Positions 1,596-58,279 of a stretch of 64,000 nucleotides of DNA are shown one piece after another; position 1 is the first letter of the stretch, and each line of letters opens with the position of its first letter. The notes beneath the pieces were generated by a model that searched no databases, was not told the DNA's origin, and worked only from the letters and a program-made list of their open reading frames with translations. The position numbers and the translations under genes were made by a program. Source of the DNA: Arthrobacter sp. QXT-31 (GTDB lineage Bacteria; Actinomycetota; Actinomycetes; Actinomycetales; Micrococcaceae). The stretch spans positions 3,410,001 to 3,474,000 of the forward strand of contig NZ_CP019304.1 of assembly GCF_001969265.1 (NCBI RefSeq). The letters run 5' to 3'.

Positions 1596-1686
1596 ACTCG
1601 TACCTCGGATTTTCTTGGTGGTCGATGGTGCGCGATCTGCCTGCCAGCACAACTGTACATCCGCCTCCCGGTGTCCTGCCGGGAAC

Positions 1687-4600: not shown

Positions 4601-4896
4601 TTGGGTTCCTCGGTCTCGGCGGTGAACAGGCCGTCCCCGATGAAATCCCGCACCTGGCGCAGGGAGATGCCGAGCACCTTGCCGAAGCGGGTTTCGTCGC
4701 AGATTTCGTTGACGAGCTCCTGGGACGAGACTGCGATCATGCTCCGGTTGAAAACCTGGATGCGGACGATGGGCCCGTACTGTTCCGCCACTTCGACCAG
4801 GCCAAGGATGCCCTTGCTGGAGTCGATGTCCGGCAGGTTGCCGACCAGCGGTTTTGCCGGCGGCTGGGGGATGGGGGCGGTGTTCGATGAAGTCAT
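1687..4896 (-). CDS. CYP102-type bifunctional cytochrome P450/NADPH-P450 reductase
   Basis: This is a self-sufficient fatty-acid-type hydroxylase of 1069 residues, close to the 1049 of P450 BM3, and cytosolic. The heme domain comes first: the I-helix motif AGHETTSG near residue 270, the K-helix ESLRLWPT, and the heme-Cys loop FGNGQRSCIGRG near residue 400. After a short linker, an FMN/flavodoxin domain starts at VLYGSNAGTS (about 485). The FAD/NADPH reductase domain follows, with RRYSISSSP (FAD), CAGTGLAPFRGF (NADPH) and VYVCGDGKNM near the C-terminus. The ATG at 4896 has AGGAGG ideally placed in 4902-4907. Bacterial relatives oxidise medium- and long-chain fatty acids at sub-terminal positions; that substrate is inferred from the family. 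No TetR/BM3R1-type regulator is adjacent. Confidence 0.95.
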   Translation of the reverse strand: MTSSNTAPIPQPPAKPLVGNLPDIDSSKGILGLVEVAEQYGPIVRIQVFNRSMIAVSSQELVNEICDETRFGKVLGISLRQVRDFIGDGLFTAETEEPNWQKAHRILMPAFGPKALTQMFAGMDDILEQLLLKWERLGPTARIDFSDNATRLTLDTIALCSFSYRFNSLYRDEMHPFIGAMVRALSESRDRSTRLPVQNKLMIRKRHQLEEDNALMLEVAEHLIGDRRRNPSPEGSEDILDTMLNAADPVTGERLPESNVRNQMVTFLVAGHETTSGLLSFTMYELLRHPEVMRKAQALVDEVLGTEAARFEHLPRLGYLDQILKESLRLWPTAPAFNVAAYEDTVIGGKYEVAKGQPLMVLIPKLHRDKAAWGEDAELFNPDRFSPERVESIPPNAWKPFGNGQRSCIGRGFALQEAMLFLAKALQRFDITAADPNYELNIKHTLTMKPEGLYVHVRRRDVRIDAAASAAVGQADRGQADTAPGAREQEAPKAAANGVPVRVLYGSNAGTSRDFAQRIANDAGRRGYSPTIAPLDEAAGGLPTVGLVAVVASSYEGMPPDNAKRFMTWTESLPPGSLAGVRYTVFGNGNRDWARTYQEVPKAIDARLEAAGAERVYERGEANARGDFFGDFEEWYAGFWPAVDGALGQKTTAPAGEPQLEVQFVGNVRDALLRQGDLALGTVVVNRELVDLTKPDARSKRHVEIALPEGMGYRAGDYLAVLPLNPADLVQRALTRLNLDYDSHVVLSMEHGDTFLPTGTPVAVGELLSSYVELAVPATRPQLEQLAEVATDMEERMKLNALAQDRQRHAAEIVDKRVSLLDLLEMHPSCQLPLTTFLQLLTQLTPRRYSISSSPLWSPDHATLTFAVVQAPAWSGRGTFEGAASTYLAQARPGSRVAVTVRPSNAAFHPPESLAMPVIMVCAGTGLAPFRGFVQDRALRAQAEDIRPAKSLLFFGCRAPDTDFLYRAELESWAEQANLDLRPVFSKAPSDGQKYVQHRLWADRADVKELVRQGATVYVCGDGKNMAPEVRDTCERIYQEATGASEADADAWMDEVERTHGRYVADIFT

Positions 4897-5343
4897 GGTG
4901 CCCTCCTAAGCGGTCTTCATTGACACTTGCCTGTGCTGGTTCTCTATTGCTTTTCGTTGCCGGGAGGGGGCGCCACGTTGTGCTCTTCTGTGAACGGGGC
5001 TGGCCGGGCGTCACGGGCCGGGCGCAGTACAGGATACTCCCGGGGGGTGCCGGCGACTACGGGTTATTTCTTTGGGGACGGGGTTGCGGGGTTCGGGGCG
5101 GGGCCGGGGTCCTAGCCGGGACTTCATGCCGGGGCCCTAACGTGCGACCGGCACATCGGGAAGCTCAACTTCCTGCGATGATTTACGCAATTCACCTACG
5201 GGATCGGTCAAGATTTTCCGAGCTTATCCACATAGGCGGCGATATCTGTTTCGCCGGCCTGCGCGGCGTGCTCCCATGGAACGAGCAGCCGCCATCCACC
5301 ACCATTCCGACAGCATCGGGTGGCCTTCACTGGGGAGAACCAA
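4897..5343. other. intergenic region between divergent P450 and M23 peptidase genes
   Basis: 447 nt. The left half carries the P450 ribosome-binding site and presumably its promoter. The right half (about 5160-5343) is less G-rich and is the likely leader of the peptidase gene. No convincing ORF is present. I looked for a c-di-AMP (ydaO) riboswitch because such elements control wall hydrolases in actinobacteria, but could not match its conserved segments. Confidence 0.5.
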
Positions 5344-6993
5344 TTGGCAAAGCATCTAGAACCTGCCGCTGACCGGACCACGCCAGCCGTCGACCGGCGC
5401 ATCCCGCAGGACCCGCGTCCTGCCGTCCTGAGCCGTGGCGTCCTGAGCCGTGCCGTCCGGGTCGGCGCGGGCACAGCGTTCCTGGCGGTCTACGCCGTTG
5501 GATTCCCGGGCACTGGCCCCGTTCTTTCGTCCGGGCAACTGCCCGCGGAGGTGGCTGCCGCCGTCTCCGTCAACGGGGCACTCGGATCCGGCGCCGTTGC
5601 CTCCGGCTCCGTTTCGGGCCCCTCCATTTCGGGCGCAAGCTCCGTCACGGCCTCCGGGAACGCGTTCCTGTCCTACAGCCAGACTCCCGTCTTCACCGTG
5701 GCACAGTCGGTGAACCAGCAACTCGACGTGCTCTCCACCAAGGTGCGGCGCCCGGCGGCCGGAACCCTGATGGCGCCGTTGGCCGTCCTGGTCCCCACCT
5801 CGCACTTTGGCCTCAGGACAAGTCCCATCACCGGCTCGGCGGGTGAGTTCCACTGGGGCCAGGATTTTGCTGCAGCCTGCGGCACCAACGTCTATGCAGC
5901 CGATGCCGGCGTGGTACGGACAGTGGGATGGCATCCGTGGGGCGGCGGCAACCGTGTGGAAATCGACCACGGCAACGGCCTGATCACCACCTACAACCAC
6001 CTCGAAGGCATCGGTGTGAAGAAGGGCCAGACCGTCCAGGTGGGGCAACTCATCGCCAAGGTCGGGACCACCGGCGCATCAACCGGATGCCACCTCCACT
6101 TCGAAACCATTCTTAACGGCAAACACGCGGACCCCGACAACTGGACCCTGCTGCGCCACCGTTCCGCCGGGCCGGTTCCCGGTGTGAAGATGACCGACTA
6201 CCGCAACGGCACCGCTTCGGGGACGCCGAGCTGGGCTATTCCGGTCGGCGTGAGTGCTCACAACAATGCGTCGGACGAAGGGCATGAAACGGCGGCCAGC
6301 GCTGTTGCCGCGGCGATCTATTGGCAGCCCGCCGCGTCCGTTTCCGCAGCCACGCCTTCAGATTGGCTGACCCCGCTGCCTGCCGCGAAGGTTGCCGCGC
6401 CCAAGCCTGCAAAGCCGGTTCCCGCCCCGAAGGTTGCCGCGCCCAAACCTGCAAAGCCGGCTCCCGCTCCGAAGGGCGCGCCGAAGGTGACCAAGCCGGC
6501 TCCGGCTCCGACGGTCACTGCGCCCAAGCCGACGAAACCGGCTCCGGCTCCTGCACCTGTTGTCGCCCCGGCCCCGGCCCCGGTTGTCGAGCCGGCTCCA
6601 GCACCGGCGCCGGTTGTCGCCCCGGCCCCGGCGCCGGTGGTCGCCCCGGCCCCGGTTGTCGATCCGGCTCCAGCACCGGCACCGGCACCTGCGCCAGCTC
6701 CCGCACCTGCTCCGGCCCCCGCTCCGGTTGTGGATCCGGTTCCGGCTCCCGCTCCGGCGCCAGCTCCGGCCCCGGCACCTGCTCCGATTGTGGATCCGGT
6801 TCCCGCACCGGCTCCGGTTCCCGCGCCGGCCCCTGCTCCTGCTCCGGCTCCCGTTGTCGACCCGGTTCCCGCTCCCGCGCCTGCTCCGGCGCCTGCGCCT
6901 GCACCGGCTCCGCAAGAAATCCAGGAACCGGCACCGGCCCCGGCAACCGAACCTGCCGCCGCCGCTGCAGCCCCCGCGGAGGCCACCAAGTAG
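5344..6993 (+). CDS. exported M23-family (LytM-like) peptidase with long Pro/Ala-rich tail
   Basis: Zinc endopeptidase that should cut peptidoglycan cross-bridges, or act as an inactive activator. The TTG start at 5344 is chosen because GGGGAG lies 6 nt upstream; a GTG at 5320 in the same frame lacks a site. A hydrophobic stretch ([17 protein letters not shown]) near residue 45 is a non-classical signal or anchor. The M23 domain spans about residues 150-260 and shows HWGQDF, the strand [15 protein letters not shown] and the metal motif CHLHFE, so the ligands look intact. From about residue 345 to the end the protein is almost entirely PAPAPVV-type repeats (roughly 200 residues), with KPAPAPK units first and pure PAPAP later. 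Such tails usually span the cell wall. It is monocistronic, with a hairpin terminator 41 nt downstream. Confidence 0.85.
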
Positions 6994-7034
6994 CCACAAC
7001 AAAATAGACCGCGCGGAGAGATCCGCGCATAAAA

Positions 7035-7087
7035 GGCAAGCGACGGCGATGAGTCCCTGGGAGGGGCTCATCGCCGTCTGGCTTGCC
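7035..7087 (+). terminator. hairpin terminator of the M23 peptidase gene
   Basis: Two nested perfect stems: GGCAAGC (7035-7041) with GCTTGCC (7081-7087), and ACGGCGATGAG (7043-7053) with CTCATCGCCGT (7067-7077). The loop is tccctgggagggg. There is no T tract, as is common in high-GC actinobacteria. Confidence 0.7.
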
Positions 7088-7181
7088 AGGGCCTCACAGT
7101 TCAGGTTTCCCGCTGCCTCATAATTTCCTGCTGCCTCATAAGGTGCCGTGCAGGACCAGATATAGGCTCGGATTCATTAAT

Positions 7182-7200
7182 GCGAATGATTATTGATAGC
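7182..7200 (+). promoter_or_regulatory. Fur/Zur-like metal box upstream of ABC operon
   Basis: GCGAATGATTATTGATAGC matches the classical 19-bp Fur box at 13 of 19 positions, including the uninterrupted core AATGATTAT, and resembles actinobacterial Zur boxes (core AATGATTTTCA). It lies 41 nt before the first gene of a peptide/nickel-family ABC operon, in an AT-rich patch of otherwise GC-rich DNA. Which metal regulator binds, if any, cannot be told from the sequence. Confidence 0.5.
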
Positions 7201-7240
7201 ATGAGGCGGTCCCGTAAGCCTTCCTAGAAATGACCCCACG

Positions 7241-8008
7241 ATGCCAACTCCCGCCCTGTCGGTAAGGAACCTCGCGCTTTCCCTCGGTGCCCGGGAGTTG
7301 GTGCAGCCGCTGACGTTCACCGTTGGTACAGGGGAGCGAGTGGCACTGCTTGGTGCATCCGGTTCCGGGAAGTCCCTGACAGCCTCAGCCCTGACTGGCA
7401 CTGTGCCGGAAGGAATCACCGCGAGCGGTGACGTAGCCTTTTCCACGACGGCCGGCACCCGGCCCGGTGCCGGTAGTGCTGCACTGATCAGGCAGGATCC
7501 GGCCAGTGCACTCAACCCGCTGGTTCCGGTGGGCAAGCAGGTGGCCATGCCGTTGCGCAGGTTCGGCCTTAGCCGGCGGGAAGCACAGGCGGAGGCCGGA
7601 CGGCTGCTGGTACGTGCTGGGATGGATGGAACCGACCGGATCCTGCCGCGATACACGGGGGAACTGTCCGGCGGGCAGCTTCAGCGGGTGTGCATCGCGC
7701 TTGCCCTTGCCTGCGGCAGCAACGTGCTGGTGGCCGATGAGCCGACCACCGCGCTGGATGCGGTCACCCAGCGCAAAGTTCTTGCCACCCTCCGCACCTT
7801 GGCGACTGAGGGCCGCAGCCTTGTCTTCATCACGCACGATCTGCCGGTGGCGGCGTCCCTGTGCACCAGGGCGCTGGTGATGTCGGCAGGCAGGATCGTC
7901 GAGGACGTTCCGATGCGCGAGCTGCTGGACAACCCGCAGCACCCGTATGCCCGGCGCTTGGTCGAGGCCGGAAGGCGGGCTTCACTGCCGCTGGCGGCGG
8001 CAGCGTGA
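7241..8008 (+). CDS. peptide/nickel-type ABC transporter ATPase (DppD/OppD-like)
   Basis: First ATPase of a metal-boxed importer; it powers uptake of a small peptide-like or metal-chelate substrate at the membrane. The 255 residues include Walker A GASGSGKS (about 34-41), a Q-loop, the signature LSGGQLQRV, Walker B VLVADEPTTALDA and the switch His in FITHDLP. The C-terminus has the DNPQHPYARRLVEAG segment, which is diagnostic of the oligopeptide/dipeptide/nickel subfamily. The ATG at 7241 has no strong ribosome-binding site. Its stop overlaps the GTG start of the next ATPase by 4 nt (GTGA), so the two are translationally coupled. The gene order here is ATPase, ATPase, binding protein, fused permease. 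Confidence 0.88.
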   Translation: MPTPALSVRNLALSLGARELVQPLTFTVGTGERVALLGASGSGKSLTASALTGTVPEGITASGDVAFSTTAGTRPGAGSAALIRQDPASALNPLVPVGKQVAMPLRRFGLSRREAQAEAGRLLVRAGMDGTDRILPRYTGELSGGQLQRVCIALALACGSNVLVADEPTTALDAVTQRKVLATLRTLATEGRSLVFITHDLPVAASLCTRALVMSAGRIVEDVPMRELLDNPQHPYARRLVEAGRRASLPLAAAA

Positions 8009-8919
8009 CTGGCGGCAGCGTGACTGGCAGCAGCACAACGGGCAGCAGCGTGAGCGACGCCCTCCGCGTCACCACCCGCACCGGAGGAACGAATGCCGGC
8101 GGCTCAACCGGCCGCCCCCCAACCTGCCCTCCCACGCCCGGCGACCTCACGGCGGACAGCCTCTCGTTCGCCTACCCGCCGCGGGGCTTTCTGCGAAAAT
8201 CTCCCGGGCACGCGCTTCAGGACATAACCCTCCGGCTCTCCCCGGGGAGCAGCACAGCCCTGGTGGGACGTTCCGGGTCCGGCAAGTCCACGCTGGTGCG
8301 CATCATGCTGGCGCTGACCAAGCCCTCCAGCGGCACGGTGTCCCTCGGTCCCCGTCCCGTTCAGCCGGGCTCCGCCAGGGCCCTCCGCTGGTACCGGCGG
8401 TCCGTGCAGTACGTTCCGCAAAACCCTGCCGGCAGCCTGGATCCGCGTATGACCGTGGCCCAGCTGCTCACTGAGCCGCTCCGGCAACTGCGGGTCGAGG
8501 GAAACCACCGGATGCTGGTGGCCCAGGCACTGGAGCGTGTGGAGGTGGCTGCAGCGCTGCTGGACCGCCGCCCGGGCGAGCTTTCCGGGGGCCAGAACCA
8601 GAGGGTCGCCGTGGCCCGCGCACTGGTTGCCTCACCTTCCTACCTGCTGGCCGACGAGCCCGTGAGTGGACTTGACCTGCCACTGCGGGACACCGTCCTG
8701 GCCCTGCTCGACAGCCTGGTCCGGCACGACGGCCTGGGACTGCTCCTGGTCACCCACGACCTTGCCACTGCAGCCAGGATGTGCGGCACCACTGCTGTCC
8801 TCGACGACGGCCGGATCGTGGAGCACGGTCCCACACACCAGGTTCTTAAGGATCCCCGGAATGAGGCCACGGCGGCCCTTCTCGAGGCATCGCCGGACCT
8901 GCTGCGCACTTACGCATAG
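8005..8919 (+). CDS. peptide/nickel-type ABC transporter ATPase (DppF/OppF-like)
   Basis: Second ATPase of the importer. The GTG at 8005 overlaps the upstream stop (GTGA) and gives 304 residues; the frame runs open further upstream inside the first ATPase, but coupling favours this start. GTG codons at 8020 and 8050 are alternatives, because the sequence gtgactggcrgcagc is duplicated here. Residues 1-35 are low-complexity Ser/Gly/Thr. Then come Walker A GRSGSGKST, signature LSGGQNQRV, Walker B YLLADEPVSGLD and switch VTHDL. The C-terminal oligopeptide-transporter extension is short. It forms a heterodimer with the preceding ATPase on the fused permease. Confidence 0.85.
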   Translation: MTGGSVTGSSTTGSSVSDALRVTTRTGGTNAGGSTGRPPTCPPTPGDLTADSLSFAYPPRGFLRKSPGHALQDITLRLSPGSSTALVGRSGSGKSTLVRIMLALTKPSSGTVSLGPRPVQPGSARALRWYRRSVQYVPQNPAGSLDPRMTVAQLLTEPLRQLRVEGNHRMLVAQALERVEVAAALLDRRPGELSGGQNQRVAVARALVASPSYLLADEPVSGLDLPLRDTVLALLDSLVRHDGLGLLLVTHDLATAARMCGTTAVLDDGRIVEHGPTHQVLKDPRNEATAALLEASPDLLRTYA

Positions 8920-8976: not shown

Positions 8977-10506
8977 GTGGCTAAACCGCGACTAAAAACA
9001 GGGGTAACCGCACTATTTTCTGTGCTGCTGGCAGCGGGTCTGGCCGGGTGCTTTCCCGCCGGCAACGAGAAGTCGGCAGGAACGGGTAATGACTCCGGAC
9101 GGGTCCGGCTTGCCATGCTCCTGCCGCCGCGGTCCGGTCTGTCACCGCTGAGCGACGACGCGTTCAAGCTATCCCGCTGGAAGACCGCCGAGACGCTGGT
9201 GGTGCTGGATGACCTGGGGGAGGCCCGGCCGGCACTGGCCACGGAGTGGCAGCAACTGGACTCCACGTCGTGGAAATTCTCCATGCGGCAGGGCGTCAAA
9301 TTCCACGACGGCACTGCCCTGACCTCCGCCGAGGCGGCAGCCTCCATCACCGCCGCTGCGCAGGCCAGCCCAAAGCCCAGGATTCTGGACGGCGTGGAGC
9401 TGAAGGCACAGGCTGAAGGGACCGCCGTCCTTATTAAAACGGCGACGCCGGACCCGCTGCTGCCCCAAAGGCTCTCCAGCCCCCAGTTGGCGGTGCTGTC
9501 CGCGGCGGCCTACAAGGAAGGCGGCGTGGTTGATCCCGTCAACGCCGGTACCGGCCCCTACCGCCTGGTGTCCGTGAACGGTACGTCCTCGGCCCGGCTG
9601 GACCGCTTCGACGGCTACTGGGGAGAGCCTGCCGGGGCTGCCGGCGTCGACGTGCAGTTCGTTCCGGACGGCACCGCGCGTGCAGCCGCCCTGCGGACCG
9701 GCGGCGCGGACATCGTCGAAGCCATTCCGGTGGGCCAGGTGGCCCAGGTTGACCCCGCCCTGGTGCACGAGGTGCCCATGCCCCGCACCAACACCCTGTA
9801 CCTCAACACCTCCTCCGGGCCCTTCGCCGATCCCGCCGTCCGTGCGGCCGCCCGCGAGGCGATCGACGCCGGAACCATCGTTGACCGGGTCTATGAAGGC
9901 CGGGCGGACAAGGCTTCCGGTCTGCTGGGCCCTGCCCTCCCGTGGGCGGCGGACGAACGCGGCAGCAGCAGCTACGCCGCCGCCCTAGCCAAGCGGGTTG
10001 CGGCCAAAGCCGTCAAGGGAACACCCATCCGGCTGGGGACCTTCACGGACCGGGCGGAGCTGCCCGAAGTTGCCGTGCAGCTGGAACAGCAGCTGGAGGC
10101 CGCCGGGTTCGCCGTGGAGCAGGATGTCCGCGAGTACCAGCACATCGAGGCGGACGCCCTGGCCGGCGCCTTCGACGCCTTCATCCTGTCCCGGGCCACG
10201 GTGCTGGATTCGGGCGACCCTGTGGCCTACCTCTACAGCGATTTCTCCTGCGCCGGCTCCTTCAACATCTCCCAGTTCTGCGACGCCGGCGTGGACCGCG
10301 CCCTCGCCAAGGCCGCCGCCATTCCCGCCGGGCCGGAACGCCGCGCCGCCATCGCCGCCGCGGAGAGCCTCATCCTGGCCCGCGATGCCGCCATCCCCCT
10401 GCTGCACGAACGCGTCATCCAGGGGGAATCCGCCCGGGTACGCGGGGTGGAGCGGGATCCGCGTGAACGCGCCCTGATCACCAGCAGCACGGGGATCTCC
10501 GGCTGA
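8977..10506 (+). CDS. ABC transporter substrate-binding lipoprotein, family 5 (peptide/nickel/metallophore type)
   Basis: The extracytoplasmic binding protein of the importer, 509 residues, with a GTG start preceded by AGAAGGAAC. The lipobox LLAAGLAGC gives lipid attachment at Cys near residue 28. The family-5 hallmarks are WKFSMRQGVKFHDGTAL and GTGPYRLV. It is clearly paralogous to the binding protein of the iron-boxed operon at 47-48.5 kb: both carry an ATEW-WxF-LR-GVKF-DG-AL block and a C-terminal DPxx-L--D-xC-GxxN-S-FC motif with two cysteines. The shared unusual FC motif suggests a related ligand. The Fur/Zur-like box upstream points to a metal or metal chelate rather than ordinary peptides, but this is inference. 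Confidence 0.85.
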   Translation: MAKPRLKTGVTALFSVLLAAGLAGCFPAGNEKSAGTGNDSGRVRLAMLLPPRSGLSPLSDDAFKLSRWKTAETLVVLDDLGEARPALATEWQQLDSTSWKFSMRQGVKFHDGTALTSAEAAASITAAAQASPKPRILDGVELKAQAEGTAVLIKTATPDPLLPQRLSSPQLAVLSAAAYKEGGVVDPVNAGTGPYRLVSVNGTSSARLDRFDGYWGEPAGAAGVDVQFVPDGTARAAALRTGGADIVEAIPVGQVAQVDPALVHEVPMPRTNTLYLNTSSGPFADPAVRAAAREAIDAGTIVDRVYEGRADKASGLLGPALPWAADERGSSSYAAALAKRVAAKAVKGTPIRLGTFTDRAELPEVAVQLEQQLEAAGFAVEQDVREYQHIEADALAGAFDAFILSRATVLDSGDPVAYLYSDFSCAGSFNISQFCDAGVDRALAKAAAIPAGPERRAAIAAAESLILARDAAIPLLHERVIQGESARVRGVERDPRERALITSSTGISG

Positions 10507-12310
10507 TGCCTGCCGGGGCCTTCCTGAAAATCACCGCGTCGCGGGTCATCGCCCTGCTGGCGCTGGCTGCGCTGGTGGGCTTGCTGCCGTGGCTTTCCGG
10601 CCGCGGGGCGGAGTACACCATTCTCCGAGCCCGGTACTCGGACCGGGAGCCGACGCCCGAGGCGCTGGCTGCCGTCCGCGCGGAACTCGGCCTCGAAGAG
10701 GGCCCCGGAACACTCCTGCTGGCCTGGATCCGGGGGTCTTCAGCGGAGACCTCGGCACCTCCTGGATCAGCAACACTCCCGTGGGGCCGGGCATTGCCGC
10801 CGCCCTGGGCGTTTCGGTCACGCTGATGGGGTTCGCCGTCGCCGTGGCCGTGCTGATTGCTTTGATGACCTGCATCCCGGCACTGGCGGACGGTGTCCGG
10901 GAGCGGCGCAGGCCTTCCTCCGGTGCGGTCTCTGCCGCGCTGACTGCGCTGCCCGAGTTCCTGCTGGCCGCCATGCTGCTGGTGGCGGGCAGCATCTGGC
11001 TGAACTGGTTCCCGCCCTTCGGCTGGACCGGGCCGGAGCACGCCGTGCTGCCGGCCCTCTCGCTGGGCATCCCGGCCGGCGGCCTGATGGGTCTGCTGCT
11101 CTCCGACGCACTCCGCGCCGCCTTCGGCGAAAGCTGGGTTGCCACTTGGCAGATGGCCGGCGCGCACCCTGCCCGGCTGGTGGCCGCGGTCCTGCGGCGC
11201 GCACTGCCGGCGGTGCTGCCGCAGGTGGGGCTGGTCCTGATCGGGCTGACCGGCGGCGCCGTGGCAGTTGAAAAGGTCTATGCCATCCCCGGCCTGGGCC
11301 GCGCCCTCCTGGGCGCCGCCAGCGCCCAGGACATTCCCGCCCTGCAGGCCGGCATGCTCGCGCTGATGGGCCTGGCGCTCGCCGTCGGAACATTGACGAC
11401 GGCGGTGCGTTACCTTTTGCTCGGCCCTGCGGTCCGCTTCGGCACGCTTCCCCTGCCGGTGCCTTCCCGGCGTCGGAACCGGAGGGCGTTGGCGGTGCCG
11501 GCTGGGGCAGCCGCCGCCCTGCTGCTGGTTGTAGCGGCAGGACTGCTGCGGGATCCGTACACCTCTGCCCATCCCAGGCTGGCGCCACCCGCGTGGTCGC
11601 TGCCTTTCGGGGCCGACGCCAGCGGCCGGGACCTGCTGGCCCGGGTGGGGCACGGCGCCGTCGCCACGCTGGGGACTGCGCTGCTGGTGGTGCTGGTCTG
11701 CCTGGTGGTGGGGATAGCCGTTGGCCTTTTCCCGCTGGCGGCGGCAGGGCCGGTGGAGGTCACCAACGCGGCGCCGCCCATCCTGGCAGGCCTGGTGGTC
11801 GCCGCGGTCACCGGACCTTCCCCGATGGGCGCCGCGCTGGCCGTTGCCGCCGTGAGCTGGGCGCCGCTGGCAGCCCACACGGCAGCGCTGGCCCAGGAAG
11901 CCCGCGCGCAACCCTATGTGCAGATCCTGCCAGTCCTCGGGGTGGGACGCGGACGCATCATGGTCCGCTACATCCTGCCGGCAGTGATCCGGCCGCTGGC
12001 CCGGCATGCCATGCTGCGGCTGCCCGGCATTGCTTTGGCCCTCGCCGCGCTCGGGTTCCTGGGCCTGGGCCCGCAGCAGCCTTCACCGGAGTGGGGCCTC
12101 GTCCTGGCCGAGGGCATTAATTATGTTGAGCGGGCACCGTGGGCCGTGCTGGGGCCGGCGTCGGCACTGGCGCTGGCGTCTGTACTTGCCGTCAGCCTCG
12201 CCGGTGCCGGGACGGGGACCCGCGCCGCCCGACCCCTGGCGTCCCGGGACTCCGACACCGTCCCTGCGATATCCCCGACCGCGGCGGGGGCGGAAATGCC
12301 CAAGGTCTGA
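10506..12310 (+). pseudogene. fused DppB-DppC-type ABC permease, frameshifted near its N-terminus
   Basis: The ATG at 10506 overlaps the binding-protein stop. The first frame encodes a typical DppB N-terminus: one membrane segment, then ALAAVRAELGLEEG and LLAWIRG. The homology continues in another frame with VFSGDLGTSWISN. The switch falls in a run of five G at 10732-10736; one extra G would restore a continuous protein of about 600 residues. The restored protein holds two complete permease units in series. A DppB-like unit runs to about residue 300 (EKVYAIPGLGRALL) and a DppC-like unit follows (SLPFGADASGRDLLARV and a final LGFLGLGPQQPSPEWG). It is either a genuine inactivation, phase variation, or a sequencing slip in the homopolymer. 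Confidence 0.75.
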
Positions 12311-45263: not shown

Positions 45264-45479
45264 GATCACTCCTGCGGCTGTTCAGTTATTCCGAACCATA
45301 GTCGATGTCCAATGGGGTCCGCGCGCCTCGCCCTGACTTACAAGGCTAAGCACACTTATTAATTTGGCCAAGGCCCGTTGGGCAGCAGGAGGCGATGTTT
45401 ATCAAATTGTTTGTGTTTCGAGATTCCCGGAGCCCGCGTCACAGCTGCGCGCGCCGCGCCCGCACCTAGGATGAAGGGG

Positions 45480-46696
45480 ATGACTCCGCCGCCAGACAGC
45501 CCGCCGCCCTTCAGCCTCCGCGGCATCGCTGTTCCGGCCTTCGGCCCCGCCCTCCTGTTCAGCGTGGGCCAGGGCGCGATCCTGCCGGTGGTGGCGCTGT
45601 CCGCCCGCGAACTGGGCGCGTCCGTTGCCGTGGCCGCCCTGATCGTCACCCTGATGGGGCTGGGCTCGTGGTTTTTCAACCTGCCGGCGTCCATGATCAC
45701 CCTGAAGTTCGGTGAACGCTGGTCCATCGTGGGCGCGGCCGCCGCCGGTGCCCTGGCCCTGCTGGCGGCCGGACTGTCCTTGGTGATTGGCAACGGACTC
45801 TGGCTGCTCGCGGTGGCGATGGCCGTCGTCGGGATGTCCGCCGCGGTCTTCAGCCTGGCGCGGCAGAAGTACCTCACCGAAGCCGTGCCGGTGGAATTCC
45901 GTGCCCGTGCCCTGTCCACGCTGGGCGGCGTGAGTCGGATCGGCACGTTCATCGGCCCGTTCATCGGCGCCGCGGCCATGGCCCTGGTTGGCATCAGCGG
46001 CGCGTACTGGGTGGGCGTGGCCGGCATGGCCGCCGCCGCGCTGCTGGCCGTGAACGTCCGCGACCTCGTGGCGGTGGACGGCCCCTCCACGCAGGCCGGT
46101 CCGGAGCCTACCCTGCGCGGCGTGGCCGTCTCGCATGCCGGCGTCTTCCTGACTGCCGGCGTGGGCATCCTGCTGCTCAGTGCCCTGCGCGCCTCCCGCC
46201 AGGTGGTGATCCCGCTGGGCCGACCACCTGGGCCTGGACCCCACGCACGCTTCATTGGTGTACGGACTTTCCGGGGCGATCGACATGCTGGTCTTCTACC
46301 CGGCGGGCAAGGTGATGGACCGGCGCGGCCGGCAGTGGGTGGCCATCCCGTCCACGCTGATCATGGGCTTGGCGCTCGTGCTGATCCCACTCACGGCCGG
46401 GTTCACCGGCCTGCTGCTGGCGGCCCTGCTGATCGGCTTCGGCAACGGAATCAGCTCCGGCCTGGTGATGACCCTCGGCGCGGACTTCTCGCCCAGCCGC
46501 GGCCGCGGGCAGTTTCTGGGCCTCTGGCGCTTCATGGCCGACGCCGGCTCCACCGGCGGACCCTGTCCTCCTCTCCGTGGTGACGGCTGCGGCCTCCCTC
46601 GGCGCCGGGGTGACGGCCACAGGAGTACTGGGGTTCGCAGCGGCAGGTGTGTTCGCCGTCGTACTTCCCAGACTCAGGCACCGGCGCAACTACTGA
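45480..46696 (+). pseudogene. MFS transporter with two frameshifts
   Basis: A major-facilitator protein of about 405 residues is readable across three frames. Frame 1 runs from the ATG near 45480 (or 45471) to RQVVIPL at about 46215. A 2-nt loss (expected ctgtgggcc, found ctgggcc near 46214) shifts the homology to ADHLGLDPTHASLVYGLSGA. A 1-nt gain in the CCC at 46561-46563 shifts it again to PVLLSVVTAAASLGAG, and it ends in LRHRRNY at the TGA 46694-46696. Helical content is preserved, so the decay is recent or the indels are sequencing errors. A normal MFS would export drugs or metabolites. Confidence 0.8.
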
Positions 46697-46755
46697 CGCC
46701 CGCCGCACCCAACTGGCGCCCTCCCCGCACACCCAACTGGCGCCCGCCCCGCACA

Positions 46756-46821
46756 CCCAACTGACTCGCAGTTGTTGTCGTTTCCAGCCCTCAAAGCGAC
46801 AACAACTGCGAGTCAGTTGGG
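46756..46821. repeat. long hairpin, family P copy 1
   Basis: Arms 46756-46780 and 46797-46821 are perfectly complementary over 25 bp (core CTGACTCGCAGTTGTTGTCG) with a 16-nt loop. Two truncated tandem fragments (cacccaactggcgccc) lead into it from 46703. It sits after the MFS pseudogene and before the iron box. The same sequence recurs at 53465 and 58212. Confidence 0.9.
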
Positions 46822-46874
46822 CCAAGAGCGCTGATATATTACGACGGCCGAGGGGGCGGTTTTGGGAGCGGGAG

Positions 46875-46893
46875 TTAGGTTAGCCTAAACTCA
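46875..46893 (+). promoter_or_regulatory. DtxR/IdeR iron box
   Basis: TTAGGTTAGCCTAAACTCA matches the 19-bp DtxR consensus at 16 positions, with an intact left half and core. It lies 71 nt before the TTG start of the binding-protein gene. It predicts repression of the downstream five-gene operon when iron is sufficient. Confidence 0.8.
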
Positions 46894-46964
46894 GCGTGGC
46901 CCTTTCGGCCGTCCGCTCTTGCGCCTGCCGCGCTGCGCAGGCAAATCAATCTAGGTGGTACCCG

Positions 46965-48506
46965 TTGCGCTCTTCCTTCCCGCTGTCCGTGTCCTTGGGG
47001 CTCGCGGCGCTTCTTTCCCTGTCTGCTTGTGGCTTCAGCGGCGAAGCCAGTAAAACCGGCCAGGCGGCCGATCCGAACCAGCGGATCGTCGTGGACAACT
47101 TCCGTGCCCCCGTGGCGGACTGGGCGCTGGAGAGCGACGCCGCCTACATCCTCTCCCTGTCCGGCTGCCTCGAAACCCTGACGCGCTACGACGAGACGCA
47201 GGGCAAGATCGTGCCTTCGCTCGCCACCGAGTGGAAGCAGGTCTCCGACCTCGAGTGGGACTTCACCCTCCGCGAAGGCGTCAAGTTCCAGGACGGCGCC
47301 GCACTCGACGCCAAGGCCGTGGTGACCTCCCTGCAGAACGTGCTCGACGCCGATGTCCCGGCCCGCGCGTTCAGCCCCAAGGTGGTCAAGGCCGTCAAGG
47401 CCATCGACGAGAACACCGTCCGCGTGACCGCGCCCACCGAGAGCCCGCTGGTTCCCTACCGGCTGGCGAGCGTCAACACCGGCGTCCTGTCGCCGGCCGC
47501 CTTCAAGGGTGCGAACGTGGATCCGTTCGGCCACTGCACCGGCCCGTTCAAGCCCGTGTCAGAGAAGCCGAAGCAGTCCTTGACCCTGGACCGCAACGAG
47601 GACTACTGGGGCGGGGACGTGCAGCTTGCCGGCGCCGAGATCCGATTCATCGCCGACGGCGCCACCCGCACCGCACAGGTGCAGACCGGCGAAGCGGACG
47701 TGTCCCTGTCCATCCCGGTGTCGGGCCTGGCTGCGCTGGAGTCGGATTCCAACGTGAAGCTGCTCAAGGCGGATTCGCCGCGGACCGCGACGCTGTACAT
47801 GAACAACGGACGGGCCCCGTTCGACGACGTTGACTTCCGCAAGGCGGTCCGGTCGGCACTGGACCTGGACGCCCTCGCGGCCAGCGTCTACGAGGGTGCG
47901 GCCATCCCGGCCACCGGTCCTTTCGCCCCTTCGGAGCCGTGGGCCATCAAGGATGCCGGGGCGCCGAAGCAGGACGTGGAGGCCGCCAAGAAGCTGCTCG
48001 CCTCCGCCGGCTACACTGCCGGCCGGCCGCTGGAGATTGTCGCCATCGTGGAGCGCGCCGAGTTCGCTGACGTGGCCACGGTCATCCAGGAGAACCTGAA
48101 GGCCGTGGGCGTTCCGGTGAAGATCACCACCAAGGAGTACGCCGCGGTGGAACCGGACCTGCTGTCCGGCAATTACGACATGGTGCTGAGCCAGCGCAAC
48201 CGCCTGATCGACATCGCCGATCCCATCGGCTTCCTCACCGCGGACTACACCTGCGACGGCACCTACAACCTCAGCCACTTCTGCAATGCCGAGTACGACA
48301 AGAAGATCACGCAGGCCGCCACAACCGCCGACAGCCAGGAGCGTTACCGGCTGTACGCCGAGGCCGGGCAGATCCTCCAGGACCAGGCCGTGAACGTGTG
48401 GCTCGTCAATGAACAGGCCATCGACGCCGTTCGCACCGACCTGCAGGGCCACGTCCAGGACCCGCTGGCCAGGTACGTGCTCCGGGCCGAGTCGGCCAAG
48501 CCCTGA
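46965..48506 (+). CDS. ABC transporter substrate-binding lipoprotein, family 5, iron-boxed
   Basis: 513 residues. The TTG at 46965 has AGGTGG 6 nt upstream and gives a proper lipoprotein signal, LRSSFPLSVSLGLAALLSLSAC, with Cys near residue 22; the upstream extension to 46896 would begin beside the iron box. Family-5 features include LATEWKQVSDLEWDFTLREGVKFQDGAAL (in two blocks) and CTGPFKPV. It shares with the 8977 protein the C-terminal DP-GFLTADYTC then YNLSHFCNAEYD pattern with paired cysteines. The likely ligand is a metal chelate, as in CntA-type proteins, judged from the iron box and operon order; this is inference. Confidence 0.86.
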   Translation: MRSSFPLSVSLGLAALLSLSACGFSGEASKTGQAADPNQRIVVDNFRAPVADWALESDAAYILSLSGCLETLTRYDETQGKIVPSLATEWKQVSDLEWDFTLREGVKFQDGAALDAKAVVTSLQNVLDADVPARAFSPKVVKAVKAIDENTVRVTAPTESPLVPYRLASVNTGVLSPAAFKGANVDPFGHCTGPFKPVSEKPKQSLTLDRNEDYWGGDVQLAGAEIRFIADGATRTAQVQTGEADVSLSIPVSGLAALESDSNVKLLKADSPRTATLYMNNGRAPFDDVDFRKAVRSALDLDALAASVYEGAAIPATGPFAPSEPWAIKDAGAPKQDVEAAKKLLASAGYTAGRPLEIVAIVERAEFADVATVIQENLKAVGVPVKITTKEYAAVEPDLLSGNYDMVLSQRNRLIDIADPIGFLTADYTCDGTYNLSHFCNAEYDKKITQAATTADSQERYRLYAEAGQILQDQAVNVWLVNEQAIDAVRTDLQGHVQDPLARYVLRAESAKP

Positions 48507-48549
48507 CCGTGACGTTCCCGTACCACGGACCCCGAGAACAGGGTCCGGC

Positions 48550-49491
48550 ATGATGCTGTTCCTCGCCAGAAGAGCGGCGGCCCTGGTGGCCGCCGTTCTT
48601 CTGGCGTCTTTCGTGGTGTTCCTCATCCCGTACGTCACCCCGGGCGACCCGGTGCGGAAGATCATCCGTTCCCGGGTGGCCGGCGACGCCATCGATGACT
48701 CCGCCGTCGAGTCGGTAGCTCTCCAGCTGGGACTGCAGGATCCGCTGTGGACGCAGTACCTGCGCTGGCTGGGCCGGTTCCTCAGCGGCGACATGGGCCT
48801 GTCCTACACCAGCCGGACACCCGTTGCGGAGCAGGTGCTGCCCGCGCTGTGGGTCACGCTCAGCCTGGTGGTCATGGCACTGGCCGCGGCCGCCCTTATT
48901 GCTGCCGTCCTCGGCGTCACCGCCGCCCTGAACGAGGGGCGCGCAGCGGACAAGGCCATCACCGCGGTTTCCCAGGCGTTCATCGCGATGCCAGAGTACT
49001 GGCTCGCGCCGATGCTGGTGCTGGTCTTCGCGCTGAAGCTGTCCGTGCTTCCTTCCGCCGGTTGGGAAGGCCCGACGTCGGCAGTTCTACCCGTGGCGGT
49101 CCTCGCCTTGCGTCCGGCGAGCCATTTCATCACCGCCGTCCGCGACGGCATGCTCGACGCCCTGGGCGCGGACCACGTTACCGCCGCGCGGGGGAGGGGC
49201 CTCAGCCACGTGCAGACCCTCCGGAAGCACGTGATCCCGAACGGGCTGCTGCCGCTCACCACCCTGGCCGCCGTGTGGTTCGCCGGCCTGCTGGGCGGCT
49301 CGGTCATTATCGAGGTTATTTTCGCCATCCCCGGGATGGGACGGCTCCTGTTCGACGGCGTCCTGAACAACGACATTCCGCTCGCCCAGGGAGGCGTGGT
49401 GGTGGTCGTCGGACTGGCCGTCCTGCTCACCACGGCCGCGGACCTGGTCCACGGCCTCCTCAACCCCCAGGTCAGGATGCGGCATGCGTAA
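48550..49491 (+). CDS. ABC transporter permease, DppB/CntB-like
   Basis: 313 residues, six helices. The N-terminus MMLFLARRAAALVAAVLLASFVVFLIPYVTPGDPV is typical of DppB proteins, followed by LQLGLQDPLWTQYLRWLGRFLSGDMGLSY and the coupling helix region TAARGRGLSHVQTLRKHVIPN, then EVIFAIPGMGRLLFDGVLNNDIPLAQG, all in the usual order (each seen in parts). It starts 43 nt after the binding-protein stop and overlaps the second permease gene by 8 nt. It forms half of the import channel. Confidence 0.92.
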   Translation: MMLFLARRAAALVAAVLLASFVVFLIPYVTPGDPVRKIIRSRVAGDAIDDSAVESVALQLGLQDPLWTQYLRWLGRFLSGDMGLSYTSRTPVAEQVLPALWVTLSLVVMALAAAALIAAVLGVTAALNEGRAADKAITAVSQAFIAMPEYWLAPMLVLVFALKLSVLPSAGWEGPTSAVLPVAVLALRPASHFITAVRDGMLDALGADHVTAARGRGLSHVQTLRKHVIPNGLLPLTTLAAVWFAGLLGGSVIIEVIFAIPGMGRLLFDGVLNNDIPLAQGGVVVVVGLAVLLTTAADLVHGLLNPQVRMRHA

Positions 49492-50329
49492 CCTTCCCCT
49501 GCATATCCGGATCGCCGTCATCATCCTGGCCGTCGTCGTGCTGTCCGTGGCCCTGGCCGACTGGATCGCACCCTATCCGCCCGCCGGGCAGGACCTTGCC
49601 TCCAGGCTGGCCGCCCCCAGCGGAACCCACTGGCTGGGCACCGACCACCTGGGCCGCGACACCCTCAGCCGGCTCCTCGACGGCGGACGGTTCTCGCTGA
49701 CCATCGCCGCCCTCGCCACCGTGCTCACCGCCGTCATCGGCACGGCCATCGGCGTGCTCAGCGCCCGGCGGCGGGGCTGGCTGGATGAGTTCTTCACCCG
49801 CACCAACGACATCCTGCTGGCCATGCCGGAGATGGTGGTGGCGCTGTTCCTGGTCGCCGCGCTCGGCGCAGGCTACCCCTCGCTGCTGCTGGCCCTGACG
49901 GTGACCGGCTGGACGCCCTTCGCACGGCTCGCCCGGGCGCTGGCATACGACGTCTCCGCCCGCGGCTTCATCGAGGCGGCCCGCGTGCTGGGCTGCACGC
50001 CCTGGTTCACGGTGCGGCGCCACATCCTGCCGCACCTCGCCGGTCCGCTCATGGGCCAGGCCACGCTCCGGTTCGGCCAGTTCCTGATCAGCGTCGGCGC
50101 CTTGTCCTACTTGGGCCTGGGGGTGCAGCCTCCGCAGTCGGACTGGGGCTCCATGCTCGCCGCGGCCCAGCCGTACGCCGTGAGGTCACCGATGACCATC
50201 CTGGCGCCCGGCCTGGTGATCTTCGCCGTCGCGCTGTGCGTCACGCTCATCGGCCAGCACCTGGCACGCATGTCCAGCAGCCGGCTGCTGCTCGCGTCCG
50301 CCCCCGCACCGGAGGTCACCCATGCCTGA
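49484..50329 (+). CDS. ABC transporter permease, DppC/CntC-like
   Basis: 281 residues, six helices. The family marks are GTHWLGTDHLGRDTLSRLLDGGRFSL after the first helix (conserved in DppC/NikC), the coupling segment AARVLGCTPWFTVRRHILPH and LSYLGLGVQPPQSDWGSML near the end, each read in parts. The start overlaps the previous gene by 8 nt and the end overlaps the ATPase gene by 8 nt, so the whole block is translated as one unit. Confidence 0.92.
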   Translation: MRNLPLHIRIAVIILAVVVLSVALADWIAPYPPAGQDLASRLAAPSGTHWLGTDHLGRDTLSRLLDGGRFSLTIAALATVLTAVIGTAIGVLSARRRGWLDEFFTRTNDILLAMPEMVVALFLVAALGAGYPSLLLALTVTGWTPFARLARALAYDVSARGFIEAARVLGCTPWFTVRRHILPHLAGPLMGQATLRFGQFLISVGALSYLGLGVQPPQSDWGSMLAAAQPYAVRSPMTILAPGLVIFAVALCVTLIGQHLARMSSSRLLLASAPAPEVTHA

Positions 50330-52076
50330 CGGCCTGCTCATCGAGGACCTGCACCTCAGTGTCCGGACGCCCTCGGCGCCGTCGGCACGGCCGGTGCTTT
50401 CCGGCGTCGGCCTCTCCGTGGCACCCGGCGAGTTTGTTGCCCTGGTGGGGGCTTCCGGAAGCGGCAAGACCATGACCGCGCTGTCCGTCCTGGGACTGCT
50501 GCCGCCGCAGATCCACGTGGAGTCCGGGGCCGTCAGCCTGGGCGGGACTGACCTGCTCGGGGTGAGCGGCAGCGAGCTCAACCGGCTGCGCGGCGGCCGG
50601 ATTGGGATGCTGTACCAGCAGCCCAAACGGATGTTCAACCCGCGCATGACCATTGGCAGCCACCTGGCCGAACCGCTGAAGCTGCACCGCCAGCTGCGCG
50701 GACGCCAAGCCAGGGCGCAGGCCCTGGAACTGCTCGGCGGCGTCGGATTCGACGATCCGGCACGCGTTGCCAGGTCGTACCCGCACCAGCTCTCGGGCGG
50801 CATGGCGCAGCGGGCCATGCTGGCTGTGGCGATGGCCGGGCAGCCGGAGCTGCTGCTCGCCGACGAGCCGACATCCGCGCTGGACAAGGTGCTGGAGCGG
50901 CAGATCCTGGAACTGATCGACACCCAGCGGCGCCGGCACGGGCTCGGGGTTCTCTACATCACCCACGACCTTGCCACCGTGTCCGCGTTCGCTGACCGGG
51001 TGGTGGTGATGGACGCCGGCCGGGTCCAGGAAGAGGGCCCGGCCCGGACCGTCCTCGGCGCGCCCCGGACCGCGTGCGCCCGGGAGCTGCTCGAAGCGTG
51101 CGCCCTTACCCGCCGCCGCATTGAGGCGGCCGGGGAGGCTCGTGGTGCCGCACCTGCCCGCGACGTCCTGGCGCTGGACAGCGTCACCAAGCGGTTCGGC
51201 GGCGACGGGCGCGGCGCCCGGCCCGCCCTGGCGGACGTCTCCCTTGGCCTCCGGGAAGGCGAGATCCTCGGCGTCCTGGGCCAGTCGGGCTCCGGGAAGA
51301 GCACCCTGGCCCGACTCCTGGTGGAGGTCGAGGCCCCGGACCGCGGCACCATTAGCCGGACGCTGCCCTCGGGGTACGGAAAGCACGACGGCGGTGGTGC
51401 CGGGTCCGGCGCCCGCCGCACCCAGGTGCAGCTCGTCTTCCAGGAACCGCACGACGCCTTCGATCCGCGGATGAAACTGTTCGCCAGCCTGGAGGCCCCG
51501 CTGCTGCGGCAGCGGACCCTCAACCCGGACGGGCGCCGGGAGCTCATCCACCAGGCCGTCCAGGACGTGGAGCTGGAACCCGGACTGCTGGAGCGGTACC
51601 CGAGCCAGTGTTCGGGAGGGCAGCTGCAACGGCTCACCATCGCCCGCGCGCTGCTGCTGGACCCGGACGTGCTTATCTGCGACGAGGCGACGTCGGCGCT
51701 GGACGCCGTGACGCAGCGCAAGGTCCTCGACCTGCTGCTGCGCCTGCACCGGGAGCGCCGGCTGTCGCTGATCATGATCTCCCACGACATGAATGTCATC
51801 CGGTACATGAGCCACCGGGTGGCCGTGCTGTACCGGGGAGCCCTGGTGGAACTGGCGCCCACCGCCGACTTCTTCGCCAGCCCCCAGCACGCACACAGCA
51901 AGGAGCTGGTGGCTGCCGCCCTCGTCCAGCCGGCGGCCTGCACGGCTCCGGTGGCCTGCGGCGACCTGGCGGCCTGCGTTCACCGGGCGGCGGTCATTGC
52001 CTTGCGCGCCCCCGTCACCGGTGCGGCGGATGTGCCCGTCCGCACCCTGGAACTCATCGGCACTCCGGACGAATAA
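50322..52076 (+). CDS. fused double ABC ATPase (DppD-DppF type)
   Basis: 584 residues with two complete nucleotide-binding domains. Domain 1 has GASGSGKT (about 46), LSGGMAQRA and LLLADEPTSALDK with THDLATVS. Domain 2, after about residue 280, has GQSGSGKS, CSGGQLQRL and VLICDEATSALDA with SHDMNV. Both sites look intact. The C-terminal tail carries several Cys/His (ACTAPVACGDLAACVH) near 545-560, an unusual feature. In the first metal-boxed operon the permeases are fused and the ATPases separate; here it is the reverse. It energises the importer encoded by this operon. Confidence 0.92.
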   Translation: MPDGLLIEDLHLSVRTPSAPSARPVLSGVGLSVAPGEFVALVGASGSGKTMTALSVLGLLPPQIHVESGAVSLGGTDLLGVSGSELNRLRGGRIGMLYQQPKRMFNPRMTIGSHLAEPLKLHRQLRGRQARAQALELLGGVGFDDPARVARSYPHQLSGGMAQRAMLAVAMAGQPELLLADEPTSALDKVLERQILELIDTQRRRHGLGVLYITHDLATVSAFADRVVVMDAGRVQEEGPARTVLGAPRTACARELLEACALTRRRIEAAGEARGAAPARDVLALDSVTKRFGGDGRGARPALADVSLGLREGEILGVLGQSGSGKSTLARLLVEVEAPDRGTISRTLPSGYGKHDGGGAGSGARRTQVQLVFQEPHDAFDPRMKLFASLEAPLLRQRTLNPDGRRELIHQAVQDVELEPGLLERYPSQCSGGQLQRLTIARALLLDPDVLICDEATSALDAVTQRKVLDLLLRLHRERRLSLIMISHDMNVIRYMSHRVAVLYRGALVELAPTADFFASPQHAHSKELVAAALVQPAACTAPVACGDLAACVHRAAVIALRAPVTGAADVPVRTLELIGTPDE

Positions 52077-52091
52077 GGATCCACCTGACCC

Positions 52092-53474
52092 ATGCCGTAC
52101 CTGCCCGAAACACGCATCCTGCTTGGCACCCAACTGGTGTTCAACGTGGGCTTCTACGCGGTCATTCCCTTCCTGGCCGGCGCCATGGGCGGGGATTTCG
52201 GGCTGGACGCCGCCGCCGTCGGACTTGTCCTGGGTGCCCGCACGTTCAGCCAGCAGGGCATGTTCCTGTTCGGCGGCCTGCTGGCCGACCGGTGGGGTGC
52301 CCGGCGGGCGATCCTGACCGGCTGCCTGGTCCGCATCGCCGGGTACGCTACCCTGGCGGCAGCTTCGGATTTCACGCTGTTCCTCCTCGGCGCCGTGCTG
52401 ACAGGTGCGGGAGGTGCGCTGTTCTCTCCGGCGCTGGAGTCCCGGTTGTCCCATGCCGACCGTGCTGAACACACCGACGAACGGGGTCCGGGCAAGGGCC
52501 GGCGCTCGGTGTTCGTCTGGCTGGCGATCACGGGGGAGATGGGCGCCCTTGCCGGCCCGCTGCTGGGGGCTGCCCTGCTCGGATGGGGCTTTGACGCGGC
52601 GCTGGCGGCGGGAATCGTAGTCTTCGTTGCCGTGACCGTGCTGCTGTGGTTCCGGCTCCCCGTGGCTCCGGGGGCTGTTTCGGCGGGAGCGCCGAAGACA
52701 TCGGGTGCAGGGAAACAGGAAGCCGCACCGGCCCATTCCAACGGCGCGCTCGGATGCCTGAAGAACCGGCGCTTCGTGGCGTTCTGCCTCCTGGCCAGCA
52801 CCAACATGGTGGCCTACAACCAGATGTATTTCGCGTTCCCGCTTGAGCTGGAGCGGCGGGGCCTGGACGCCTCGTGGCTGGCAATGCTCTTCCTGCTCGC
52901 CTCCGTGCTGACGTTGCTCCTGCAGCTGCCGGTGGCCGCGGCCGGCCAGCGGCTGGGGCCGGGACGGACCATGTCGGCCGGCTTCCTGCTCGTGGGGGCT
53001 GCCCTGGCGGCGGCCGCCGTGACGTCCGTGGATGCCGGATCCGTCCCGGCGGAAGCTTCCGGTTCTGCGCCGGGCGTTTCCTCCCCGGTCGTTTCCGTGG
53101 CACTGATGGCGGGCATCGTCGGCGCGCTGATCCTGGGCCACATGCTCCTCACGCCCACCATCCTGTCGCTGATCCCGCGGTTCATCCCGGCAAAGGGGCC
53201 GGCGTCGGGCCGTGGCGCCTACTACGGACTGTCCGCAACGTGCGGCGGCGTGGCCGTGCTGGCGGGAAATGCGGTGCTGGGGTGGCTGCTGGATCTGACC
53301 GGGCGTCACCACTGGTGGCCGGGTACACCCTGGCTGCCGATGATCGGGCTCGCGGTGCTGGCCGCGCTCACGCTGCCGCGGCTGCTGCAGGGACTGCACC
53401 GCGGCACCACCCAAGGTTCGGCGGCCGCAGCTCCCGAGGCTACAGCTCCCGAGGCGCGGGCCCGGCCCAACTGA
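52092..53474 (+). CDS. MFS transporter, last gene of the iron-boxed operon
   Basis: 460 residues, about twelve helices. The motif between helices 2 and 3 reads GGLLADRWGARRAI, as in drug:H+ exporters of the MFS. It lies 15 nt after the double ATPase gene, so it belongs to the operon. Staphylococcal-type metallophore loci place the MFS exporter CntE at the same position after the importer genes, so this protein may export a metallophore. Alternatively it imports or exports an unrelated substrate. The stop codon falls inside a 30-bp-arm hairpin. Confidence 0.85.
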   Translation: MPYLPETRILLGTQLVFNVGFYAVIPFLAGAMGGDFGLDAAAVGLVLGARTFSQQGMFLFGGLLADRWGARRAILTGCLVRIAGYATLAAASDFTLFLLGAVLTGAGGALFSPALESRLSHADRAEHTDERGPGKGRRSVFVWLAITGEMGALAGPLLGAALLGWGFDAALAAGIVVFVAVTVLLWFRLPVAPGAVSAGAPKTSGAGKQEAAPAHSNGALGCLKNRRFVAFCLLASTNMVAYNQMYFAFPLELERRGLDASWLAMLFLLASVLTLLLQLPVAAAGQRLGPGRTMSAGFLLVGAALAAAAVTSVDAGSVPAEASGSAPGVSSPVVSVALMAGIVGALILGHMLLTPTILSLIPRFIPAKGPASGRGAYYGLSATCGGVAVLAGNAVLGWLLDLTGRHHWWPGTPWLPMIGLAVLAALTLPRLLQGLHRGTTQGSAAAAPEATAPEARARPN

Positions 53475-53532
53475 CTCGCAGTTGTTGTCGTTTTGAGGGC
53501 TGAAAACGACAACAACTGCGAGTCAGTTGGGC
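53465..53532. repeat. long hairpin, family P copy 2
   Basis: Perfect 30-bp arms, 53465-53494 and 53503-53532, with an 8-nt loop (gagggctg). The core is identical to the copy at 46756. It includes the last codons and stop of the MFS gene and probably terminates both convergent transcripts. Confidence 0.92.
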
Positions 53533-58211: not shown

Positions 58212-58279
58212 ACCCAACTGACTGGCAGTAGTTGTCGTTTTGACGCCTGAAAACGACAACAAATGCGAGTCAGTTGGGT
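58212..58279. repeat. long hairpin, family P copy 3 (degenerate)
   Basis: Arms 58212-58241 and 58250-58279 match family P (AACTGACT...GTTGTCGTTTT) but differ from each other at three positions, so this copy has decayed. The loop is gacgcctg. Just upstream, 58110-58160 holds direct repeats of cagtggaggctg. It lies between the PAP2 gene end and the methyltransferase gene start. Confidence 0.85.

Follow-up and report, generated by a model that had tools for sequence, protein, structure and literature searches.

What does the operon at 46875-53474 of the window (the whole 64,000-nt stretch of Arthrobacter sp. QXT-31 DNA analyzed, positions 3410001-3474000 of a single 5.04-Mb contig) carry across the membrane, and under what control? 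A sequence-only reading had described it as an iron-boxed ATP-binding cassette (ABC) importer followed by a co-directional major facilitator superfamily (MFS) gene, in the order found in the cnt (staphylopine) loci. We consider it reasonably probable that the operon, repressed by iron, serves to import an amino-acid-like chelator carrying a metal and includes a linked exporter; its assignment as a cnt-kind locus is not supported. All of its elements lie on the + strand. A DtxR/IdeR-type box, TTAGGTTAGCCTAAACTCA (46875..46893), precedes a SBP_bac_5 lipoprotein gene with a TTG start and the lipobox LSAC (46965..48506), predicted to encode a binding protein of metal-chelate type. After 43 bp comes a permease gene of DppB/NikB type (48550..49491), then one of DppC/NikC type (49484..50329), both with BPD_transp_1 domains; a fused double ATPase of DppD+DppF or NikD+NikE type, with two ABC_tran stretches in one protein (50322..52076); and, after overlaps of 8 and 8 bp and a 15-bp gap, the MFS_1 transporter gene (52092..53474), a putative exporter. 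All domain matches in the five genes exceed the Pfam cut-offs, as in a SBP_bac_5 or Dpp/Nik-type ABC importer, and on this point, as on gene spacing, the earlier description stands. The nearest named protein is from Arthrobacter globiformis (94% identical). When the window is aligned with 12 relatives, the start at 46965 is conserved, as is the ribosome-binding site [TC]AGGTGG in 11 of the 12 (the exception is L010); GTG 46896, chosen by the open reading frame caller, was ruled out as the start, with ribosome-binding site and start at 46965 both kept among relatives.

The box was previously scored at 16 of 19 positions. Compared with TTAGGTTAGCCTAACCTAA, this holds for the - strand (three mismatches), while the + strand gives 17 of 19 (two mismatches). 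It is the only site in the window with three or fewer mismatches; 100 shuffles of the window produced none, and the 5.04-Mb genome has four. The box is also conserved. Relatives of the lipoprotein were collected from 64 named loci, whose titles all give Micrococcaceae genera, and the best match ahead of the orthologous gene (about -150 to +20) has 2-5 mismatches in 63 of these and 7 in the remaining one (L048). By comparison, among 397 regions from these loci that lie upstream of other genes (called by script), the best match has 6 mismatches, and only 7 of 1280 first-order shuffles reached 5, with none lower. The 64 loci are related, and do not represent 64 independent events. In the 12-relative alignment, box and ribosome-binding site stand out as conserved islands amid dissimilar DNA; the distance from box to start is 90 nt in the window and about 50-105 nt across relatives. 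A candidate repressor is also present: the DtxR-family domain PF02742 has five matches in the genome, one of them a full-length IdeR/DtxR (L149).

Searching the genome with two patterns gave six further DtxR-type sites (L001, L074, two at L003/L069, L004, and L071). That at L001 is close to a binding protein resembling those for Fe3+; that at L074 is between a FecB-type binding protein gene and a permease gene, adjoining a SIP gene; the two at L003/L069 precede a ferritin-like gene; and that at L004 (1501-1519) is directly ahead of a penicillin-amidase gene. This is the class of desG, which in desferrioxamine producers has been placed under the iron regulator DmdR1 (available parts of PMC12161575). 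At the sequence level, predicted iron control of the operon starting at 46965 is well supported, both by conservation of the box and by the presence of a repressor gene.

The association of the MFS gene with the importer is strong. Among 149 genomes of the family (at most 11 candidates were scored per genome), an MFS match at E ≤ 1e-40 was found in 18, every one of which also encodes a binding protein of the clade described below; the MFS gene occurs in 14 of 16 genomes with the iron-type binding protein, vs. 4 of 133 without it. More widely, an MFS gene 36-47% identical to that of the window was found in 23 of 33 stretches from across the class, in 21 on the same strand. This tight co-occurrence suggests that the MFS protein is an exporter working with the importer.

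What the binding protein might recognize can be approached through protein family models, predicted fold, and pocket residues. The best NCBIfam model is Opp5A_nikA, but its score of 245.7 bits falls short of the cut-off (600), so that the lipoprotein does not reach equivalog level as a NikA-type protein; TIGR02294 scores 148.5 against 393. For the fused ATPase, the NikD model gives 387.1 bits (cut-off 318.7) and the NikE model 348.7 (cut-off 332.55), but each score covers two matched stretches of the protein. A first structure model of the binding protein, built from close relatives only, was discarded (pLDDT 45); one from a wider alignment reached pLDDT 87.7. Foldseek placed S. aureus NikA (Opp5A), a Ni-histidine-type binding protein, first for this model and CntA 43rd, so that NikA is nearest both by fold among solved structures and by NCBIfam model, although the window protein falls below that model's cut-off and has a DtxR box ahead of its gene. 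One S. aureus NikA entry contains nickel, histidine and thiazolidine dicarboxylate. CntA was absent among the 50 VIA-align rows listed, which excludes nothing. The NikA-, Dpp-, and other SBP_bac_5 rows from both programs lie close together, and are at most weak guides that would not fix the ligand.

In the pocket, D416 shows no variation across 56 sequences from the two types and aligns with D436 of E. coli DppA, while E. coli NikA has no equivalent aspartate; R364 is one column off DppA R383, and C430 and C440 align with DppA C450 and C463. The title of entry 8z1z names D436 and R383 as altered residues, and the numbering used here is taken from that title and the alignment. D416 and R364 suggest a ligand with an amino-acid-like end. 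E. coli DppABCDF also has the same permease types, but identity is only 24%, and the window has in addition a metal-regulator box and an MFS neighbor.

The likeness to cnt loci is one of arrangement. The gene order agrees, as the sequence-only reading had claimed, but membership does not follow: the CntA model NF047575 gives 106.8 bits against a cut-off of 800, and those for CntC, CntD, and CntF give 163.1/440, 342/380, and 344.2/385 (the last two each covering two matched stretches of the fused ATPase), with the binding protein nearer to NikA. For the MFS protein, the best NCBIfam model is MdtH, at 93.4 bits against 469, and no Cnt exporter model is among those listed. That reading had found no nicotianamine-synthase-like gene within the window and had asked about the rest of the genome; here the NAS-family model PF03059, corresponding to CntL, had no match either, while a positive control in Methanosarcina did. 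For CntM, PF10100 was unmatched in this genome, and across 396 genomes of the phylum it gave a single weak match, which fell below cut-off, but no control genome matched. A nicotianamine-type opine made by the cell itself is most likely not the chelator.

Where the binding protein does belong is in a distinct actinobacterial clade, as judged from a quick maximum-likelihood tree. A class-wide search found matches at E ≤ 1e-40 in 80 of 394 genomes, and 20-kb stretches were fetched around all 33 places outside the window with E ≤ 3.5e-66, leaving out weaker ones. In the tree, 58 of 63 rows form one clade (support 99); outside it lie the E. coli proteins DppA and NikA, along with three further binding proteins encoded by the QXT-31 genome. 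One branch (support 98) unites the Micrococcaceae proteins whose genes are DtxR-boxed with L112 and L113, both long branches whose placement is unsure; the other (support 91) has 37 rows, including 30 of the 33 fetched loci and a second binding protein from the window. The fetched loci thus comprise these 30, L112 and L113 in the iron branch, and L144, a close relative with a DtxR box. A Corynebacterium sp. protein (P0238) groups with the sister branch. Four further loci (L077-L080) served only as tree rows, for which L079 gave none usable, and as palindrome controls.

The sister branch carries a different regulatory signature. Sites with at most one mismatch to the Zur pattern tGaNNatSatNNtCa (published in PMC5472717, of which parts were available) precede the transporter genes in 13 of its 30 loci (14 sites, two of them in L134), compared with five matches elsewhere in the stretches and three in 609 kb of shuffled sequence. 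These Zur-boxed loci frequently contain the MFS gene as well. In L131 and L140, the site is ahead of a GNAT gene that itself precedes the transporter genes; a gene for a GNAT-like acetyltransferase (about 180 aa, judged by eye) lies directly before the binding-protein gene in L121, L122, L131, L132, L135, L139, and L140. Because this other branch of the clade is Zur-boxed, the class of chelator involved is probably able to carry both metals, iron and zinc.

The window itself contains a member of each branch, an operon with a Zur-like box lying 37 kb from the iron-boxed one, also on the + strand. It has genes for a first ATPase (7241..8008); a second (7861..8919), with a tblastn match to the fused ATPase, whose frame opens inside the first, its true start uncertain; an SBP_bac_5 lipoprotein paralogous to the iron-type protein at 33% identity (8977..10506); and a fused permease with two BPD_transp_1 stretches (10589..12310). 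The Zur-like site, TGCGAATGATTATTG (7181..7195), is 60 bp before the operon and differs from the published pattern at 3 of the 11 specified positions; the relative L168 has TGAGAATGATTATGG in its place. Among 13 family loci with the paralogue type (of 14 places outside the window, one at a contig end being left out), a Zur-pattern site at the operon start has at most one mismatch in 4 and at most two in 11, although matches with two mismatches also occur elsewhere in several of these loci. The MFS gene is present in 8 of the 13.

Compared by description, the closest known case is the dip2162-dip2165 (nikA2) operon of C. diphtheriae, which shares the four-gene importer of binding protein, two permeases, and ATPase (available parts of PMC6711530 and PMC13001254). 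In the same parts, dip2162-2165 is reported to be repressed by iron/DtxR and by zinc (Zur), and dip2125-2128 to be under Zur; this iron/zinc pair of operons resembles that of the window in layout and regulation as described. The DtxR box ahead of the binding-protein gene is likewise what would be expected of an importer of the dip2162-2165 kind. The C. diphtheriae operon differs in being divergent from the sidAB genes for a nonribosomal peptide synthetase (NRPS) and polyketide synthase (PKS), and the available text makes no mention of an MFS gene (PMC6711530).

S. aureus CntABCDF-CntE and the bacillopaline-type clusters share the order of binding protein, two permeases, ATPases, and MFS protein, as well as control by metal starvation. 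They are distinguished from the window operon by its fused ATPase, a binding protein nearer to NikA than to CntA, and the lack of a CntL match; cntD and cntF are separate genes.

A scheme consistent with these observations can be proposed. When iron is short, the IdeR/DtxR repressor would leave 46875-46893 and the operon would be transcribed, as the box and the repressor gene imply. By analogy with its family, the lipoprotein would capture, on the outside of the membrane, a metal complexed with a small chelator of amino-acid-like kind; both permeases, together with the fused ATPase, would then carry it inward. The metal would then be freed inside the cell, and the MFS protein, given its co-occurrence with the importer, might export either the emptied chelator or one made elsewhere in the genome. 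The operon may well use a carrier made elsewhere. A more specific possibility, tentative and on the whole doubtful, is a 'borrow and return' module, widespread among actinobacteria, with no synthesis genes of its own, in which the ABC transporter imports foreign chelators, the metal is stripped, and the co-inherited MFS protein returns the empty chelator, copies having specialized by a swap of regulator (DtxR for iron, Zur for zinc). Our estimate of this was lowered slightly on finding an NRPS gene near 1 of 97 loci, the one result counting against a synthesis-free module.

Several observations weigh against an iron-controlled chelator importer with a linked exporter. The MFS gene is downstream of the importer in just 11 of the 64 loci (among these, L012 matches in short pieces only, and neither permease nor ATPase genes could be located in L060) and upstream in 13; 35 have none nearby, and 5 more stretches are cut short. 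In 11 Glutamicibacter-type loci the MFS gene is upstream on the same strand, the box lies between it and the binding-protein gene, and no DtxR box was found ahead of it; shared iron control of the exporter is therefore not general. The D416/R364 pocket is DppA-like, as expected of a peptide binder. In Arthrobacter sp. cf158 (L029), an NRPS gene with Condensation and AMP-binding domains, encoding at least 2,555 residues and running off the stretch (2-7666), is separated from the binding-protein gene by 2.3 kb, with two other genes in front of it, and faces the opposite way. Finally, catabolic genes adjoin or surround the importer in 6 of the 64 loci, as they do in the distant L112, a setting indicative of a nutrient.

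The last two bear on the rival explanations. Neighboring genes were called with a home-made GC-frame script, which merged or missed some, giving 1138 genes in 607 groups for the 64 loci and 544 genes in 346 groups for the 33 class-wide loci; group representatives inspected by eye (19 and 14 groups, respectively) were mostly metabolic genes. Apart from the L029 gene, no neighbor inspected resembled one for making a carrier of this sort; synthesis classes other than desferrioxamine-type and NRPS genes were screened solely by eye, within these 33 groups. A true opine-metallophore (cnt-like) or other self-made metallophore system, with its synthesis genes elsewhere in the genome, would fit the importer-plus-MFS gene order, and actinobacterial CntM clusters do exist, 10 of 24 with a dipeptide-type importer besides the FecCD-type (available parts of PMC7438024). 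The L029 gene also favors it, echoing the sidAB genes divergent from dip2162 (PMC6711530, as available); the L029 gene has no DtxR box of its own, and Condensation and AMP-binding domains had no comparable match in the other 96 of the 97 loci, only a weak AMP-binding match in L063. Given also the missing NAS match, the Cnt models below cut-off, PF10100 without a match above cut-off in any genome, controls included, and desferrioxamine-type genes at 0 of 97 loci (tblastn with this genome's IucA/IucC, lysine monooxygenase, and decarboxylase), we regard such a system as decidedly unlikely. Those three query genes, side by side in this genome (L073), raise the question whether the operon imports a desferrioxamine-type siderophore that the cell itself makes, the MFS protein serving as exporter: the S. 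coelicolor desferrioxamine locus has no exporter, and a DmdR1-controlled MFS protein has been suggested (available parts of PMC12161575). The separate FecB-type importer at L074, however, already provides a binding protein, permease, ATPase, SIP, and DtxR box, and a Zur-boxed sister branch would sit oddly with a hydroxamate. Ferrioxamine-binding proteins usually belong to another class than SBP_bac_5, and altogether this explanation seems improbable.

A nutrient importer under iron control, for a peptide, amine, or amino-acid derivative and perhaps feeding a flavin-dependent amine oxidase pathway, would account for the DppA-like pocket residues and for the catabolic neighbors. In 6 of the 64 loci (L017, L021, L023, L024, L027, and L031), genes for HAD, a DAO-family FAD oxidase, aldehyde dehydrogenase, tartrate dehydrogenase, and 2-hydroxyacid dehydrogenase occur no more than 11 kb from the operon, and in L112 (binding protein 49% identical; binding-protein gene plus the next 8 kb) the HAD and FAD oxidase genes are inside the operon, between those for binding protein and permeases, with aldehyde dehydrogenase behind. 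In this genome, though, the set is about 2.5 Mb away (L153), beside another ABC transporter, putatively of amino-acid type as judged by eye, and no DtxR box was found there; nor was it found near most of the 64 loci, and the clade's DtxR and Zur control would be left unexplained. This explanation is therefore unlikely, and the set was ruled out as the operon's general partner; its presence could either hint at a secondary amine in the ligand or simply reflect an earlier role of the transporter in nutrient uptake. Heme is a ligand of some SBP_bac_5 proteins (SapA with heme in 7ofw), and a heme importer of the DppA/HbpA kind would be consistent with iron control, but the Zur boxes of the sister branch and the MFS gene would have no explanation; we think this very improbable.

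Two features of the operon's surroundings may be recorded here. Directly upstream is another MFS gene (45378-46764), in two frames where relatives have a single one of 415 aa; it may be a broken copy or an assembly slip. A 67-nt intergenic palindrome has three copies in the window, at 46756-46822, 53466-53532, and about 58213-58278, of which the first two flank the operon. It also flanks the operon in L009 (9831 and 16538), and occurs in L007 (15129), close behind the ATPase gene where no MFS match was found, and in L039 (205). It was ruled out as a special operon boundary, given the third copy at about 58213 and its presence in only 3 of the 64 loci (L007, L009, and L039).

No description of this Arthrobacter operon was recognized among the papers listed in searches of an open-license library; proteins of this kind are named peptide/nickel transporters in the sources. 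The iron catalog of Arthrobacter arilaitensis, in its available parts, includes only ISVH-family and YbtPQ-type importers (PMC2991359). The existence of a clade of actinobacterial transporters with DtxR or Zur boxes suggests that soil bacteria have a route of metal acquisition that has been overlooked, and the pairing of import and export genes, mostly without recognizable synthesis genes adjoining, would make chelator piracy with recycling a testable proposition.

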